A DNA stretch of 35,711 bases. Origin: Methanosarcina sp. GTDB taxonomy: Archaea; Halobacteriota; Methanosarcinia; Methanosarcinales; Methanosarcinaceae. Within the stretch, counting starts at the first letter, position 1, and the number at the start of each line of letters is the position of its first letter. Location of the stretch: positions 1 through 35,711 of the forward strand of contig NZ_JAQUVZ010000037.1 in the NCBI RefSeq assembly GCF_028693135.1, written 5' to 3'. The position numbers and the translations under genes were made by a program. Below the pieces are notes generated by a model. That model was not told where the DNA came from and did not search any database. It saw only the letters and a list, made by a program, of their open reading frames with translations. Shown here in pieces: positions 4,131 to 30,325 of this stretch.

Positions 4131-5690
4131 TCATCGAGCCAAAGTTGCCTGTCGAGCATCGGGTACATTTTCTTGACCGACGACCTTGAAGGTTACTTCT
4201 CTGCCCGCATTCATAATATCTATTATCTCGAGTCCCGATGGAGTGCCGTCCCACCATTTGCTATTAGGCTTTGTGGAGTCGCCAAACTTCTGGCCAGTAT
4301 TATTAAATAGATCAGTTGCATCGCCGGCATTGACCCCATGCTCTAGATCTTTTCGTCCGTCTGCCTGTTCAAGAGAGCACTCGTAATGCTTCCCAGAAGT
4401 CATATCTTGGTATTCATTGTCTCCGAGTTCATCACTGTGCCATATGGCAAGTCCAGAAGACGGCAGGGATTTATCCCTATTTTCAAGGTGTCTACATTCA
4501 ATTATGTAGTATTCAATCTCGGCTGGATCTTTGAAGGTTATGAAAAACTCGTTCGTTTCCGCCTTGGCCTTATATGTGCCGTCTGTGAGGGGTGTTACCT
4601 TGTTGGCCCAGCCGGCCTTGTACTTGAGGTAGGCGTTGACCTGGACCGGATTTTTGTCATCTGACCCTCCAAAGCCCATCAGGCAATAATTGCCAACGCC
4701 ACAGGACCTAAACCCGTCAAATCCGTAGTCGTAGAGATCAGGAAAGTCACAGACCATATGGCCATTCTCGTGGCAGAATGTTCCCAAAGTCAGCTCGTCG
4801 CCCATATTTGTGATCTGGTAATCATAAAATTTTTTCCCGTTTCCGATTTCGAAAGGAGTAGCCAAGGCCCAGCTATGAGGCCAAAGCCCCTTAGCCCAGT
4901 TGTTCACGATGTGTCCGGCGTAAAATATATTTAGGGAACGAATGAACCCCTCATTATCTGTGCTAAGACTGCTGAAATCGAACCCCTTTGCTTTTAGATC
5001 TTTTAGGGCCTCGAGGATCAGCTCCCTGGCCCTTATTCCTTGGCGTATGGATTCATTGGTATAGTAGTCCCTCGGATTTTTGGCAGTATAGTACTTTGTG
5101 ACTATGTTCGTATAATTTAGCTTCCCCCCTGAAACATCGGAGAAATAATCATGGACAGATCCTGCATTCTCGAAGCCTGTATAGCCCTGCATGTTGCAGA
5201 ATTTCTCTACTTCGGATTGCGGGATGGTGCATGGGACATCAGGAAACTGGACCAGAATACAAAGTCCAGTATAATCTCCCTTTGTCTCCTCACTTGGGGG
5301 AGCTGGGAGGATGTCCCTTGACATCGCTGCCATTCTTTTCGCCTGTTTTGCCTCCTGCCTCCTCTGTTCCCATCTTGTTGTGGCAGCCATCTTGTAGTAG
5401 GCCATCCTTGACTCCTGCCTGGCTGCTTCCTTTGATATCCTTATATGCCTCTTAATGCCGAGAACCGCCGGATCTACAAGCCCTACTCTGATGCCTGTAG
5501 GCTCTAGGAAGCTCTCATCGGCTGATAGCTTTGCATACCCATAATAGCCCGTGACCGGGTCCATGGTGACTGTGAATCCATCGAGCGTCTCGAAGACTGC
5601 GTAATTCTGGTTCCCCCAACCCCTAAGTTTTATCTGAGTCCCATCAGGTTGAGTAAACTCAAATTCTTTGTTGTAAAACGGATATGGCAT
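4131..5690 (-). CDS. M6-family (immune inhibitor A-like) metallopeptidase
   Basis: A 519-aa zinc protease. The N-terminal 70 residues (beginning MPYPFYNKEFEF, with GWGNQNYAVFETLDG) are the usual beta-rich lead-in of the M6 family; a Lys/Arg/Ala-rich helical linker follows (about 85-125), then the catalytic domain. The metal site is HENGH (307-311) followed by DFPDLYD (315-321), matching the HExxHxxxFPDLYD-type motif. No signal peptide or membrane segment is visible, odd for a family that is usually secreted. It is either exported by another route or acts inside the cell. RBS AAGGGGG lies upstream of the start. It is co-oriented with the deamidase cluster about 540 bases upstream, a possible functional partner. 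Confidence 0.9.
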   Translation of the reverse strand: MPYPFYNKEFEFTQPDGTQIKLRGWGNQNYAVFETLDGFTVTMDPVTGYYGYAKLSADESFLEPTGIRVGLVDPAVLGIKRHIRISKEAARQESRMAYYKMAATTRWEQRRQEAKQAKRMAAMSRDILPAPPSEETKGDYTGLCILVQFPDVPCTIPQSEVEKFCNMQGYTGFENAGSVHDYFSDVSGGKLNYTNIVTKYYTAKNPRDYYTNESIRQGIRARELILEALKDLKAKGFDFSSLSTDNEGFIRSLNIFYAGHIVNNWAKGLWPHSWALATPFEIGNGKKFYDYQITNMGDELTLGTFCHENGHMVCDFPDLYDYGFDGFRSCGVGNYCLMGFGGSDDKNPVQVNAYLKYKAGWANKVTPLTDGTYKAKAETNEFFITFKDPAEIEYYIIECRHLENRDKSLPSSGLAIWHSDELGDNEYQDMTSGKHYECSLEQADGRKDLEHGVNAGDATDLFNNTGQKFGDSTKPNSKWWDGTPSGLEIIDIMNAGREVTFKVVGQENVPDARQATLAR

Positions 5691-6231
5691 ATTTGATACC
5701 CCCTTTATTCATCTTGAGTAAATGTCAAAGTCAGATTCTAAGCTCCAAAACTAGCTGAAAAATTATCTAAACCTCCAGGAACTTAGAGTCCTTTTCAGTT
5801 AACATCGAACCTATAAAATTGTTCAACCCCCAAAAACTTTACAGAATCTGTTTGTAGTTTTACATCTTACCCGAATACTATGAATTATACTGTAAATTCT
5901 GAATACATTTTTTCCAGCAATTTTAGATTATAACCCTTGTTTGACGGTAGCCTATTTTTTCTTAAAATTTTATGGATTGTTTTTTATCTATTTGCCTGAG
6001 ATAAATTACTTAATTAAATGTAATAAGGAGCTTATCCAAAACCCACTTCATTCCTACTCATTAATAATTTTTGGAATTGTCGTCCTGAGCAGATCCCTTA
6101 GGAATGACACAAATATAACTTATAAATTTCAGTTTGGGAATTGATCTATAGTTCCATTTCCCCCAATAACCATTCTTGGTAACAAAACCCCTTGATATTA
6201 TATTTGAATCATTCCTCAGCTTTTTATTGCT
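5691..6231. other. intergenic spacer upstream of the M6 gene
   Basis: About 540 AT-rich bases with no convincing gene. A 67-codon plus-strand frame at 5941 has hydrophobic, AT-driven composition and no RBS. The right end (about 6095-6217) is one copy of a dispersed repeat whose partner is near 34010-34134. Confidence 0.55.
6095..6217. repeat. dispersed repeat, copy A (partner near 34010-34134)
   Basis: This stretch and the one at about 34010-34134 share long blocks, for example CTATAGTTCCATTTCCC, then CAACAAAA/GTAACAAAA and TTGATATTATATTTG, in the same order and orientation with scattered substitutions. Both copies lie in gene-free spacers about 28 kb apart. No coding capacity or clear terminal repeats are seen, so this is a non-autonomous element or a remnant. 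Confidence 0.65.
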
Positions 6232-6558
6232 TTACTGCTGAACAGCTTTTCCAGCATCTTTTGCTTCAGTTAGCTCTGTCAAAGATGTTCCGGCTTGCCA
6301 TCCCGATACGGCTTTGCTCTGAAACTCCTTTGGTGCTTCACCGCAATCTATTGCCATCTCTTTGGAAAAGGCCATCTGTCCCATCTCTATGGAGGGGGGC
6401 ATTGTAGCTGAGCCTGTACCAGGAGTTATAGTGGGTGCAGGCCCTGCATCCTCAGCTCCCAGAGTTGTTGCCTTTTCCAGAATCTCTGTAGGAGGAGTCT
6501 TCTGGATGGATATGGCCGAAGCAACTTCTTCTCCATCGATTTGAATAGTGATTTTCAT
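6232..6558 (-). CDS. small acidic protein, third gene of the deamidase cluster
   Basis: A predicted 108-aa soluble protein. It starts with a short beta-like segment MKITIQIDGEEVASA, passes through a segment AEDAGPAPT, then a Pro/Gly/Ser/Thr/Ala-rich low-complexity middle, and ends in a helical tail rich in Ala, Lys, Glu and Gln. The start at 6558 is chosen over 6588 because GGAGG lies eight bases upstream. It is 13 bases downstream of the 84-aa gene and co-oriented with the deamidase, so a single transcript is likely. The residues suggest a disordered or small carrier-like protein; a substrate or partner of the neighbouring enzyme is conceivable, but nothing in the sequence proves it. No established family is claimed. 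Confidence 0.75.
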   Translation of the reverse strand: MKITIQIDGEEVASAISIQKTPPTEILEKATTLGAEDAGPAPTITPGTGSATMPPSIEMGQMAFSKEMAIDCGEAPKEFQSKAVSGWQAGTSLTELTEAKDAGKAVQQ

Positions 6559-6571
6559 TCCACGAGCCTCC

Positions 6572-6826
6572 TCAGGATAAGATTGCATATCGCCCTTCGA
6601 AACTCAGCTGGATATTGGTCAAATTTTTAACCGTAATCCAGTATGTGCATTGGGTTGCGTTTGCCCTTTCCACAGCCACCTCCCAACTTAAATCCGGGGA
6701 GCCACTCTTAGGCGTTGTAGGCATCATATACCAGATTACATGTAATGCTGGATTCCATCTCCAGGTAAACCAACGTTTAGTTTCTCCAGGACCTAGCGAT
6801 CCTGTCCACTGTACACCTGTACTCAT
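6572..6826 (-). CDS. small protein paralogous to the deamidase C-terminal domain
   Basis: An 84-aa protein that is essentially one beta-rich domain. It aligns along its whole length with the last 85 or so residues of the protein encoded just upstream: both share GVQW, an aromatic-rich W-x-W centre, MP-T/I, then ERAN-x-TQCTYWITVKNLT and FEGRY. The 17-residue core identity shows a domain duplication, one copy free-standing and one fused to an enzyme. The Trp content suggests a binding domain (inference). No signal peptide. RBS GGAGG lies nine bases before the start. It lies 25 bases downstream of the deamidase gene and 13 upstream of the acidic-protein gene. Confidence 0.85.
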   Translation of the reverse strand: MSTGVQWTGSLGPGETKRWFTWRWNPALHVIWYMMPTTPKSGSPDLSWEVAVERANATQCTYWITVKNLTNIQLSFEGRYAILS

Positions 6827-6851
6827 TCTCTTTCACCTCCAATAATCAGCA

Positions 6852-8174
6852 TCATTTGCTTAAAACGTCATACCTACCCTCAAACCTCACAGGATCTCCA
6901 GTCAGGTTTTTGACTGTAATCCAATAGGTACACTGAGTTTCATTCGCCCTCTCCATCTCGACTGTCCAGGTGAGCTGCGGTCCTCCCGGACAGTGAGTTA
7001 TGGGCATTATGGTCCAGAAGACATGCCATTTTGCAGGCCAGCCCCAGGTATACCAGAGGGCTGTCGAATTTGGGCCGATTGTTCCAAACCACTGGACCCC
7101 TGCAGGAGTAATCAGGCATTTTATATAGGGCGGTGGACCGCTCGGACTGACCGACCTGATCTTGAGTTGATTTCGATAATTATTCAATACCTGATTGGTC
7201 CGCGTATAGGCTGCATCGTCATAAGAAACAGATCCACCGAATGATCTATGAAAGACCGAAGCATTGGTCGGAACCAGTACTGCCGAAGGGTCTCCTTGTA
7301 CTCCTTTCCAGGCTATTTCAGTCACAGGACCGTTGAAAAGCGAGGGATCGATTACCAGGATGCCTGAGCCGGACACCTGCACAGTCGGCGCCACATGCCA
7401 CCCCCAATTAACTATACAGTTTGGGTTGTTAGTAGCTGGGGTCTTCAGGCTGCCGTAGATCCAGACCTTATCAGGCTGGACGCCCGCTGCAATCATCAGT
7501 CTGCACATCTCATGAGCCCGTCCCCAGCATCCATCGTCGGGGTACAGAAAAGGAATACATGGCGCTGCAGCGCTGGCAGGACAGCATGTCTCGGATTTGA
7601 CCAAGTCAAAAAGCTCTTGAGCCTTTTGCGGTGATATCGAGACTAATTTTGGGGCTTCACTCACCGGCTGAGGTGATTGCACCTCAGCCGGTGCCATAGG
7701 GTTTGGGTTGGGCCTGATATCTATGATATCATGAGTGTTTGGGGCCTCTGTGACCAGTAAATCCTTATCTTCATCCTTTGCTTTTTTCAGGGCATCCAAT
7801 AACTTCTGGAAATCCGGGTTTGACCGCCTTATATAGTGCTTAGCCTGAGAGATTGTCAGCTCTACTTCGACATCAGCATTGTCTAAAGGTTTGATGATCC
7901 CTACTTTCACAGACAGTGGAACTAACACTTCGGTTATGACATTGGTTTGAGGATCGATCTCCACGTAGACGGACTGTTTCGAATGGCGTATATTGTCAAG
8001 CACATCCGCCCATACGACCGACCTGCGATCTTTCAACTCTAGGTTACCGGACCCTCCGCCATCAAAATTCACCTCGATAACCCTGGCTGACGGTTCTCCT
8101 GCCACGGCCGCCACGGCTTCAATCGGTGAAGAAAGACCTCTCACTCCATCCATAATCACATTTGGTTTGGCCAT
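6852..8174 (-). CDS. predicted protein-glutaminase-like deamidase, multidomain
   Basis: A 440-aa protein with three parts. Residues about 30-155 form an alpha/beta N-terminal domain (RSVVWADVLDNIR, YVEIDP, IRRSNPDFQKLLDAL) ending before a Pro-rich linker. Residues about 185-345 resemble the protein-glutaminase (Gln deamidase) fold: DGCWGRAHEM with candidate nucleophile C216, WGWHVAP with H260 and VIDPSLF with D276, the Cys-His-Asp order of that family. The last 85 residues repeat the domain found alone in the next gene. The enzyme class predicts conversion of protein-bound Gln to Glu, but a thiol peptidase or transglutaminase-like activity cannot be excluded. No signal peptide is seen. GGAGG lies upstream of the start; it is the first gene of the cluster. 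Confidence 0.8.
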   Translation of the reverse strand: MAKPNVIMDGVRGLSSPIEAVAAVAGEPSARVIEVNFDGGGSGNLELKDRRSVVWADVLDNIRHSKQSVYVEIDPQTNVITEVLVPLSVKVGIIKPLDNADVEVELTISQAKHYIRRSNPDFQKLLDALKKAKDEDKDLLVTEAPNTHDIIDIRPNPNPMAPAEVQSPQPVSEAPKLVSISPQKAQELFDLVKSETCCPASAAAPCIPFLYPDDGCWGRAHEMCRLMIAAGVQPDKVWIYGSLKTPATNNPNCIVNWGWHVAPTVQVSGSGILVIDPSLFNGPVTEIAWKGVQGDPSAVLVPTNASVFHRSFGGSVSYDDAAYTRTNQVLNNYRNQLKIRSVSPSGPPPYIKCLITPAGVQWFGTIGPNSTALWYTWGWPAKWHVFWTIMPITHCPGGPQLTWTVEMERANETQCTYWITVKNLTGDPVRFEGRYDVLSK

Positions 8175-10020: not shown

Positions 10021-10200
10021 TCAAGTATTATACTTAACTGTGAAAAAAAGAAGATGTGAATCAATAAAAGAAATATATTCTCAAATATTATAATTAAATG
10101 TGAAAAACAGAGTACGTGAACCAATAAAAGAAATTTACTATCAAGTATCATAAATGAGTAACTGTGAAAAATAGTGGGGATGAACCAAATGGTAAATAAA
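10021..10200. repeat. three 60-bp direct repeats leading into the caspase gene
   Basis: Units at 10021, 10081 and 10141 each begin TCAA-A/G-TAT-T/C-ATA, continue through TGTGAAAAA and end GTGAA-C/T-CAATAAAAG or its equivalent GATGAACCAAATGGTAAA. The third copy, with small indels, contains the RBS-like GGGGATG and the start codon of the caspase gene. The array therefore amplifies the 5' leader or promoter proximal region of that gene. The first two copies carry no usable start. Confidence 0.65.
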
Positions 10201-11004
10201 GCTCTCTGTGTAGGGATCAATGATTATCCTTACGAAGGCAACGATTTGAATGGCTGTGTGAACGATGCCAAAGCTTGGGCAGATTTGCTCGTTGATCATT
10301 ATGGCTTCGCTCGGGATAATGTCAAGCTGATGCTTGACGCGGAAGCCACCAAGGCTAACATCATGGCATATCTTGAAAGTCTGGTTACAGGGGCAAAGCC
10401 TGGAGACATGTTGGTCTTCACCAATTCATCACATGGGACGTATGTTGCGGACACGAGCGGTGACGAGGAGAAGTACGACGAGGCTATTTGTCCCTACGAT
10501 ATTCCGGAGAACCTTATCATCGACGACGATTTGCGCGAGCTGTTTGCCAAACTGGCAGAAGGGGTCAGTCTGACCGTAATATCCGACTCCTGCTTCTCCG
10601 GCACGGTAACACGAGCTGCTGTCTCAGAGATCATCCCTGGTCTCAAGACACCGGATGACCGACGGATGAGATTTCTGAATCCGGCACTGATGGGCAGGCT
10701 AGTCTTGCAGAATCCATGGAAGGCTAAGCCGAAGGGAAAGACAAAGTACCCGGAGTCAAAAATGAAGGACGTCTTGCTGAGCGGATGCACGGACAAAGAA
10801 TATTCCTATGATGCGCTGATCGGTGGAACGTATCACGGGGCGATGACTTACTTTGCTTTGCAGGCTATCCAGGAGGCCAATTACCAGATTACGCTCCAAC
10901 AGCTGCATAAAAGGCTTCTCTTCCTCCTTGACAACGAGGGATACAATCAGCATCCTGAATTAGAGGGAAAGACAGCCAATAAGAAGAAGCAGATATTTGC
11001 ATGA
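10189..11004 (+). CDS. caspase-like cysteine peptidase (C14 family)
   Basis: A 271-aa single-domain caspase-like protease of the prokaryotic orthocaspase/metacaspase type. The strand KALCVGINDY opens the fold, NGCVNDAKAWADLL follows, the catalytic His is H82 in SSHGT and the catalytic Cys is C135 in SDSCFSGT. Both dyad residues are present, so the enzyme should be active. No transmembrane, TPR or death-like domain is attached. ATG 10189 is preferred because the GGGG sequence is well spaced from it; 10180 or GTG 10174 would put the RBS on the start. The stop overlaps the next gene by ATGA, so the caspase and the CHAT gene were expressed together. Such pairs are known in defence and programmed-death modules; the target is unknown. 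Confidence 0.88.
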   Translation: MVNKALCVGINDYPYEGNDLNGCVNDAKAWADLLVDHYGFARDNVKLMLDAEATKANIMAYLESLVTGAKPGDMLVFTNSSHGTYVADTSGDEEKYDEAICPYDIPENLIIDDDLRELFAKLAEGVSLTVISDSCFSGTVTRAAVSEIIPGLKTPDDRRMRFLNPALMGRLVLQNPWKAKPKGKTKYPESKMKDVLLSGCTDKEYSYDALIGGTYHGAMTYFALQAIQEANYQITLQQLHKRLLFLLDNEGYNQHPELEGKTANKKKQIFA

Positions 11005-11590
11005 TGATCGGGCTATTTGGTGAGGGAAAGGAAAAACTGCCCCGCGTGCTGCACATCTCCATTGCCCGGTATCAGAGAGACTTGCCAAAGACGGACGAGT
11101 CTCTACAATTTCTTATTTTCATCCATGAGGAAGGAGCAGGAATAACCTGGTAGCAGAACGTAACCATAGATTCAGAAAGCGAGTGCCAATTCCTCGAAAC
11201 GACCCAGGATTTGTACTGGTGGAGCAAGAATGCTACGCTAACGCTCAAGGGAGCAAAAGAGCGTGTTCGTAGATTGGGGAGTCAGCTCTATGACACCTTC
11301 ATAGGTCCTGACGGAAAGAAAGTCCTGGAAAGCATTATCTCCACCGCTGTTCTCCTTGATGTCGACGAGACGATCCTCAATCTGCCTTGGGAGCTCATTG
11401 GGGAAGAAGGAGAATATCGCAGCAAACACCCTTCGACCGACTGGTGACCACCCGTGTCATTCCCAAACCTGGCCGCAATCCACTGAAAGAGGACAACGTA
11501 GTGCGCATACTTGCAGTGGCCAATCCAACATTGGACCTTGCTGCGGGGGAACGCGAGGTTATCGCTCTTAAGGAATTGGAGGGTGAAGGA
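11001..11590 (+). pseudogene. CHAT-domain protein, N-terminal part, with in-frame UAG and a frameshift
   Basis: Starting ATG at 11001 overlaps the caspase stop. The frame reads 50 codons to a TAG (11151-11153), continues open in the same frame through a helical region to a CHAT-like core, LNLPWELIGEEGEY, then needs a one-base frameshift near 11430 to continue as FDRLVTTRVIP and VVRILAVANPTLDLAAG. These are the usual first strands of a CHAT (caspase-like) domain. The catalytic His and Cys would lie further downstream and are replaced by the DUF1998 fragment. In Methanosarcina UAG can encode pyrrolysine, so the UAG alone need not be a stop; the frameshift and missing active site make this a pseudogene or a strongly altered protein. 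Confidence 0.65.
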
Positions 11591-12541
11591 AGTCAGGTTG
11601 TAGCAGGTGGCAAGTTGTGGACAAGCCGTTATTTGAAGAGGCTTCCGCAGAGAGAGTGGCCCAAATACAGATATGCTGTATGTGAGAATTGTGAGCGGTA
11701 CCAGAGAGTTATTGCCGATTCGGATGAAAAACTTGATGTTTGTGATTCATGCGGTATGCCCCTTAAAGGTAAATCGAGGGGAACTTTTATAGTACCGGAA
11801 TTTGGCTTCATAGCAAGTAGAAAAAAACCAAAGAAGGTAGGGGAATCACGTCCTGAAAGAGCATATTCTACAAGAAGCTACTACTCAGGAGAGTGTGATA
11901 AAGATAATGAACGGATTCTCAATTTGAAGAGCAACATAGTACTCAAAGCGATATCGGCATCTCATGGGAAAATGAGTGCAATAAACCATGCTGGACATCA
12001 AAGGTTTAAGGTATGCAACTGGTGCGGTTACACCGTTCTTGGCAATGAAAAGATAGAAGAGACTCATGAAACTGTATTGGGTTCTCCATGCTCAGGTAAG
12101 CTCTACAAATACGACCTTGGCCACGAATACATGACCGATATGCTTCAGCTACATTTTGAAGGTTATTCAAATCCGGATATAGGATTCTGGCACTCTCTTT
12201 TATATGCAATTCTTGAAGGTGCCAGTGAGTCACTTGATATTGATAGACAGGATCTTGACGGTTGTTTGTATCCCACGGGAGGAGATTCATCTACTCAGTC
12301 TATCTTGCTATTTGATGATGTGCCAGGAGGAGCCGGGCATGTTAAAAGAATAGCTCAGGACGAGGATACTATTGTAGAAATATTAAAATGCACTCTTTCA
12401 AAATTAAAAAATTGTAATTGTGGAGGAGAAGGTGGAGATGCAAGTTGTTATGGCTGTTTGAGAAATTACAGAAATCAATTCTGCCATGATCAATTGAATA
12501 GGGTTGTAGTTATTCAATTTTTGGAGCAGAATATTCCGTGA
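11591..12541 (+). pseudogene. C-terminal part of a DUF1998 (DrmB/MrfB-like) protein fused to the CHAT remnant
   Basis: From about 11591 the open frame carries roughly 315 residues of a DUF1998-type C-terminal region: AGGKLWTSRYLKRLP, two zinc knuckles (CENC/CDSC), CNWC, the core LLFDDVPGGAGHVKRI and the ending CYGCLRNYRNQFCHDQ with clustered cysteines. DUF1998 is found at the end of certain helicases and in the DrmB protein of DISARM defence systems. The N-terminal parts are missing. The frame is open to the TGA at 12539-12541 and is continuous with the CHAT piece after the frameshift, so an in-frame chimera could be expressed from an internal start (ATG 11387 or later). I treat it as a recombination product. 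Confidence 0.7.
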
Positions 12542-30133: not shown

Positions 30134-30325
30134 TGTATCTAACCTATATATTCAATTATTATCGTTTTTATGTATATTATCTATTTATGTCTTTTCAAAT
30201 AAATATCTTATCTAGCAATTGAAATACTGCTGCAACGATTTTTTTGGCAAAAAACACTGCCAATCGCCATTTTGCTTTCTATCTTAATATTGGTAAATTT
30301 CAATCTTAAAAATATTTCAATCCAT

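Follow-up and report, generated by a model that had tools for sequence, protein, structure and literature searches.

A recurrent gene cassette of archaea and bacteria as a possible modular carrier of swappable, leaderless protein-acting enzymes

A contig of Methanosarcina sp. (NZ_JAQUVZ010000037.1; the window, i.e., the whole stretch of 35,711 nucleotides that was analyzed) encodes a cassette of three tightly packed genes, A, B, and C, in which a leaderless pro-protein-glutaminase with a fused C-terminal domain (CTD) is followed by a free-standing version of the same domain and then by a short protein bearing repeated motifs. We propose, tentatively and at slightly less than an even chance, that this cassette is a modular carrier for swappable leaderless protein-acting enzymes that would operate via pairing of the CTDs, a motif-bearing tether, and release of the enzyme from its pro-region. 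The genes lie on the minus strand, viz., A (6852..8174, 440 amino acids [aa]), B (6572..6826, 84 aa), and C (6232..6558, 108 aa), with gaps of 25 bp between A and B and 13 bp between B and C, and are followed after a further 541 bp by a co-oriented gene for an M6 metallopeptidase (4131..5690, 519 aa). Each of the four is preceded by a clear Shine-Dalgarno sequence, and a simple hydropathy check, rather than a dedicated predictor, finds no signal-peptide-like N-terminal hydrophobic stretch in any of their products. This agrees with the initial annotation of the window, which had placed four minus-strand genes without signal peptides here; its further suggestion of an intracellular system is compatible with the absence of leaders, as leaderless export would be.

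A scan of a CTD alignment against 84,980 species genomes recovered 23 good loci. Together with the window and a plasmid locus, these make up the 25 loci that were studied closely. Searching plasmids revealed the domain on an S8 peptidase of Haloferax mediterranei, again followed by a separate 84-aa copy. In 25 of the 25 loci, a gene with a fused CTD has a free CTD gene directly downstream, and in 24 of them, the window included, a C homolog follows the free CTD, the contig ending at that point in the remaining one (L030). The A-B-C neighborhood, whose conservation across genomes the initial annotation had set beforehand as the test that could refute it, thus recurs throughout this set. The module N-terminal to the fused CTD varies greatly and is a protein-glutaminase in 12 loci, a propeller of the Sortilin-Vps10/BNR type of about 750 aa in 10 (for one of these, L018 from Arthrobacter, just a C-terminal piece was read), and an S8 peptidase in three. 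A search of 298 Lentzea relatives adds four genomes with the glutaminase version and seven with an astacin module (PF01400, E 1e-46) on a more distant CTD. A genome normally carries one fused and one free CTD: exactly two CTDs occur in 23 of the 24 genomes or records reached via the loci, the exception being a Sinorhizobium plasmid with a glutaminase and no CTD at all, and among the Lentzea relatives, 15 of the 16 genomes with the domain have two copies and one has four, forming two pairs.

The hosts, which for the 25 loci represent nine phyla, comprise archaea (Methanosarcinaceae, Haloferax) and bacteria from at least seven phyla (Actinomycetota, Chloroflexota, Planctomycetota, Acidobacteriota, Desulfobacterota, Pseudomonadota, and Bacteroidota). 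Within these lineages, the distribution is patchy and the cassette rare: beside the window's own genome, gene A occurs in one of 150 relatives, and the CTD is found in three of 393 genomes of the archaeal phylum and in two of 399 Chloroflexota-type relatives. Beyond the cassette itself, no neighboring gene family recurs across phyla. The CTD and C have no match in Pfam, NCBIfam, PHROGs, or PADLOC. The cassette is apparently undescribed, no account of it having turned up among open-licence papers.

The fused CTD of A (aa 356-439; 6858..7109, minus strand) was recovered as a hidden Markov model match and is 56% identical to B, in line with the initial annotation of B as a paralog of the C-terminus of A; B itself hits no Pfam family at E 1. 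The two kinds of CTD differ at position 33: among 24 fused copies, that of A included, 23 have Thr and one has Ser, and all 24 free ones have Tyr, with the more distant astacin group, which falls outside this count, showing Thr and Met. In a tree built from 50 CTDs, two changes suffice to explain the fused or free label, versus 17 in shuffles, with B grouping with the free class and the fused CTDs splitting further by their N-terminal module. By sequence, the fused and free CTDs thus form two old classes, and the conservation of their labels suggests two subunits with distinct conserved roles, for which a heterodimer is the simplest reading. An AlphaFold2 model of the free CTD (pLDDT 94) predicts an all-beta, six-stranded sandwich. 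Foldseek finds no confident relative of this model (E above 0.2), and a viral structure library contains no match under E 0.05. A second structural comparison ranks pre-peptidase C-terminal (PPC)-like domains of secreted proteases first, namely the C-terminal domain of Tk-SP (3afg, Z 7.9) and the ColG/ColH collagen-binding domains (Z 6.3-6.7). With Z-scores under 8, the likeness to these PPC-like domains may reflect only a common arrangement.

Gene C is likewise a constant component, beginning 9-42 bp past the free CTD gene (or 16-60 bp at a few loci where this is less certain). In the window, its ATG at 6558 lies behind its own GAGGAGG and yields 108 aa; the longest frame, of 118 aa from 6588, overlaps the stop region of B, and the homolog in another Methanosarcinaceae genome (G053) is also exactly 108 aa and uses the start equivalent to 6558. 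The product is small and acidic, as initially annotated (15 acidic versus eight basic residues), with a strand-like N-terminus, MKITIQID, and the motifs DAGPAP, DCGEAP, and DAGKAV. Its homologs range from 48 to 215 aa, mostly start with MRIIIEID, and carry one to four [DSN][AG]GxAP motifs; 38 strict motifs occur in 23 C proteins versus 0.4 in composition-preserving shuffles. When open reading frames of at least 50 codons are considered in all frames, those with at least two strict motifs are always C, in every main-set locus having one, the frame detected in L028 being C extended upstream. In six of the seven astacin loci read, C is encoded between the effector and the free CTD and shows two or three motifs without the MRIIIEID start, which indicates that the motifs are the conserved core of the protein. 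The Haloferax versions (L031 8266-8862, L032 8268-8912) display four motif-like repeats and a helical-looking C-terminal segment (MDYEAIVSGTVEEVKDRV...LIEAERAG...LIEWLE).

Gene A matches the Gln_deamidase_2 family (PF18626; E 3e-29, 101.6 bits, curated cut-off 25), and its residues 91-350 align with the pro-protein-glutaminase 3a54 (phmmer E 2e-27), so the homology takes in both the pro-region and the catalytic domain. The pro-region spans approximately aa 1-160 (7695..8174), of which the part from aa 91 onward aligns with the pro-region of 3a54/3a56. The catalytic domain (aa 185-350; 7125..7622) contains a Cys-His-Asp triad, C216 (7527-7529), H260 (7395-7397), and D276 (7347-7349), that is invariant in nine homologs and aligned with 3a54. 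A full-length model of A (mean pLDDT 65) retrieves 3a54 by Foldseek at E 4e-12, and at that confidence supports the glutaminase match only. By family, catalytic triad, and pro-region, A is a protein-glutaminase, as initially annotated, with a predicted deamidation activity. It also matches the model of the secreted Chryseobacterium-type enzyme (NF040782; E 9e-29), with 100.8 bits against an equivalog cut-off of 250, and the Sec signal peptide expected of that type is missing by the hydropathy check, with a clear ribosome-binding site at the start of A. The Sinorhizobium sp. BG8 plasmid encodes a leaderless homolog consisting of the pro-region and catalytic domain (L006 8001-9113), which is free of the CTD and the companion genes and ends exactly where the CTD would begin.

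The pro-region is fused to the catalytic domain in the window, G053, and Lentzea and its relatives, and is a separate upstream gene, overlapping or abutting that for the catalytic domain and CTD, in four loci (L011, L013, L019, L020), as would be expected of an inhibitor able to act in trans. In known pro-glutaminases, extracellular peptidases bring about activation, and the propeptide reportedly remains attached after cleavage (PMC13139226). Together with the split genes, this makes inhibition by a trans-acting pro-domain reasonable. Read by eye, the S8 and astacin modules also have extensions at their N-termini that could be pro-domains. A Gln considered at an active-site position of the pro-region of A was dropped as a feature because its placement differs between the alignment to the wild-type form and that to the A47Q form. 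In an Anaerolineae metagenome-assembled genome, an in-frame lipoprotein-like signal, MLVIRRFLKTNSVGYLLLGLMTLYIFLGGC, lies upstream of the separate pro-domain gene (L013 6332-7177), the true start of which is unsure since an RBS-like AAGGAG also precedes a shorter start.

The M6 metallopeptidase is a genuine member of its family (TIGR03296, E 2e-49, 169.1 bits versus a cut-off of 110.8; PF05547, 27.8 versus 22). In G053, the same four genes occur in the same order, with identities of 85% for A, 76% for C, and 80% for the M6 protein; this recurrence puts the set seen in the window well beyond chance. The protease, initially counted with the cluster, is a close neighbor of the cassette in these two Methanosarcinaceae only and is not a general partner: the sole other instance is a distant homolog, leaderless like that of the window, which in Arthrobacter (L018) sits downstream of the cassette at a distance of about 3 kb. 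M6 was accordingly rejected as a regular component beyond Methanosarcinaceae; it is a lineage-specific neighbor and a possible activator. The G053 version (L008 7930-10272, 780 aa) ends in P_proprotein domains that the window version lacks, and near-identical 195-aa genes (L008 6660-7247 and 14492-15079) flank the G053 cassette region, an arrangement suggestive of insertion or duplication. Elsewhere in the window, a caspase-like gene is present at 10174-11004 on the plus strand (VGINDYPYEGNDLNGC ... SSHGTY ... DSCFSGT), followed at 11387-12541 by a gene for a protein with a cysteine-rich, helicase-associated-looking sequence.

Since unrelated modules share B and C, these two proteins would serve in placing or assembly rather than in one catalytic reaction, i.e., they probably act in placing or holding the enzyme. 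The initial idea of a deamidase guided to its partner through the shared domain is plausible in itself, but we recast it, given that N-terminal modules with no relation to one another use the same domain pair. We propose that A provides the swappable, zymogen-like enzyme on its beta-sandwich CTD, here a protein-glutaminase restrained by its pro-region, and that B contributes the counterpart CTD, from a second class that stays permanently distinct, and would most probably associate with the CTD on A. The two to four short motifs of C would most probably bind this pair and anchor the complex, or load it, at a shared site. Removal of the pro-region, in Methanosarcinaceae possibly by the M6 peptidase, would free the activity, and the enzyme would go on to modify target proteins. 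Considered across its hosts, the cassette could be a polymorphic enzyme system that has spread between bacteria and archaea, in which the CTD, its obligate free partner class, and the short-motif protein form a universal carrier; we hold this broader reading to be possible, somewhat short of an even prospect. Several observations weigh against the proposed carrier: in some Lentzea, C amounts to no more than 48 aa with a single motif, the fused and free CTDs of the Haloferax pairs cluster together on the tree, the separate pro-domain of L013 may carry a lipoprotein-type signal and would then lie outside the cytoplasm, and the propeller lacks both a demonstrated enzymatic activity and any known pro-region.

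Alternatively, an extracellular contractile injection system (eCIS) could carry the cassette products as cargo, with the CTD pair and C loading the enzyme into the injector for delivery into other cells. A transglutaminase-like toxin is one example of known eCIS cargo, which is leaderless and often enzymatic (PMC11297309, PMC8894135). An eCIS that looks complete shares a contig with the G053 cassette (C20:20997-22592), at a distance of about 5-6 kb; its sheath frame runs from 27856 and its tube gene is at 30250, and genes for an AAA ATPase and three DUF4157 proteins come next. Of 24 genomes with the CTD, 16 have the tube family (PF06841); in archaea, it is present in three of the four such genomes against 30 of 295 in the phylum, with the proviso that the related genomes in these co-occurrence counts are not independent. 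However, among the Lentzea relatives (tube family in 42 of 99), it is no commoner with the cassette (six of 11) than without it (36 of 88), and the background among relatives of the Desulfogranum genome is 32 of 146. Moreover, physical linkage is seen in G053 alone, the two being on different contigs elsewhere; two cassette-bearing genomes with good coverage, Phycisphaerales bin11 (a complete chromosome) and Haloferax mucosum, yield no tube or sheath hit; and no CTD relative appears among viral contigs. A strict dependence on eCIS was rejected on the strength of the actinobacterial background and the latter two genomes, and the high backgrounds lead us to keep delivery by eCIS as a serious rival, if an unlikely one, rather than as the main claim.

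We give a comparably low probability to an intracellular, self-directed conflict system akin to abortive infection, in which C, attached to the CTDs, would restrain or sense, and its loss or modification would free the zymogen against the cell's own proteins. The lack of leaders on any part, the presence of three protein-damaging enzyme types held as zymogens, the patchy, horizontal distribution, and the caspase-like gene downstream in the window are all consistent with it, but A, B, C, and the M6 protein match no PADLOC family, no defense family recurs among 112 cassette neighbors, and neither a sensor nor an NTPase is conserved alongside the cassette. A setting in a defense island was rejected on the same absence of a recurrent defense family. 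An origin from phages or viruses was set aside too, as no phage record matches A, no viral contig carries the CTD, and A, B, and C have no PHROG match. The original proposal, a deamidase system with C as the substrate and M6 as a regular component, now seems highly improbable. The C of the window does have seven glutamines, and M6 adjoins the cassette in both Methanosarcinaceae, but C also accompanies modules of the subtilase, astacin, and propeller types, and it is devoid of glutamine in four of the cassettes with a glutaminase (L020, L023, L024, L025), which argues against C being the substrate, a role rejected as a general one; M6, for its part, was not found near other cassettes save the Arthrobacter one.

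If the proposed pairing and motif binding hold, the carrier would represent a general means of conveying or keeping protein-modifying enzymes that are dangerous and have no secretion leader, and protein-glutaminase, familiar chiefly from its use in food, would gain a natural setting. Two of the three conserved proteins of the cassette are families new to the four databases searched, and in archaea and many bacterial phyla alike they travel together with unrelated modules. The proposal is directly testable, given small, soluble-looking parts and cultivable hosts such as Haloferax and Lentzea.

The closest characterized relative of A, the protein-glutaminase of Chryseobacterium proteolyticum (3a54, 3a56, 2zk9), shares the Cys-His-Asp catalytic domain and the N-terminal pro-region. 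In contrast to it, A has no signal peptide, has an additional 84-aa CTD and the companions B and C, scores below the NF040782 cut-off, and belongs to a group in which the pro-region is sometimes a separate gene. The CTD resembles PPC-type and related beta-sandwich domains (Tk-SP, ColG/ColH), its closest structures, in its C-terminal location on protein-acting enzymes, but differs in its weak Foldseek and Z-scores and its lack of a Pfam sequence match. To our knowledge, a free paralog and obligate pairing are not typical of PPC domains. The eCIS-associated toxin EAT14 (PMC11297309) is comparable as a transglutaminase-like Cys-His-Asp enzyme linked to eCIS; however, it has a DUF4157 domain, which A lacks, and is without a CTD, B, or C. 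Polymorphic effector and toxin systems with adaptors, e.g., the effectors of type VI secretion systems and eCIS, differ from the cassette in that its constant part is C-terminal with a free paralog and is accompanied by neither a recurring immunity gene nor a consistently linked secretion machine, while sharing with it the organization of a conserved module with exchangeable catalytic parts and small companions.

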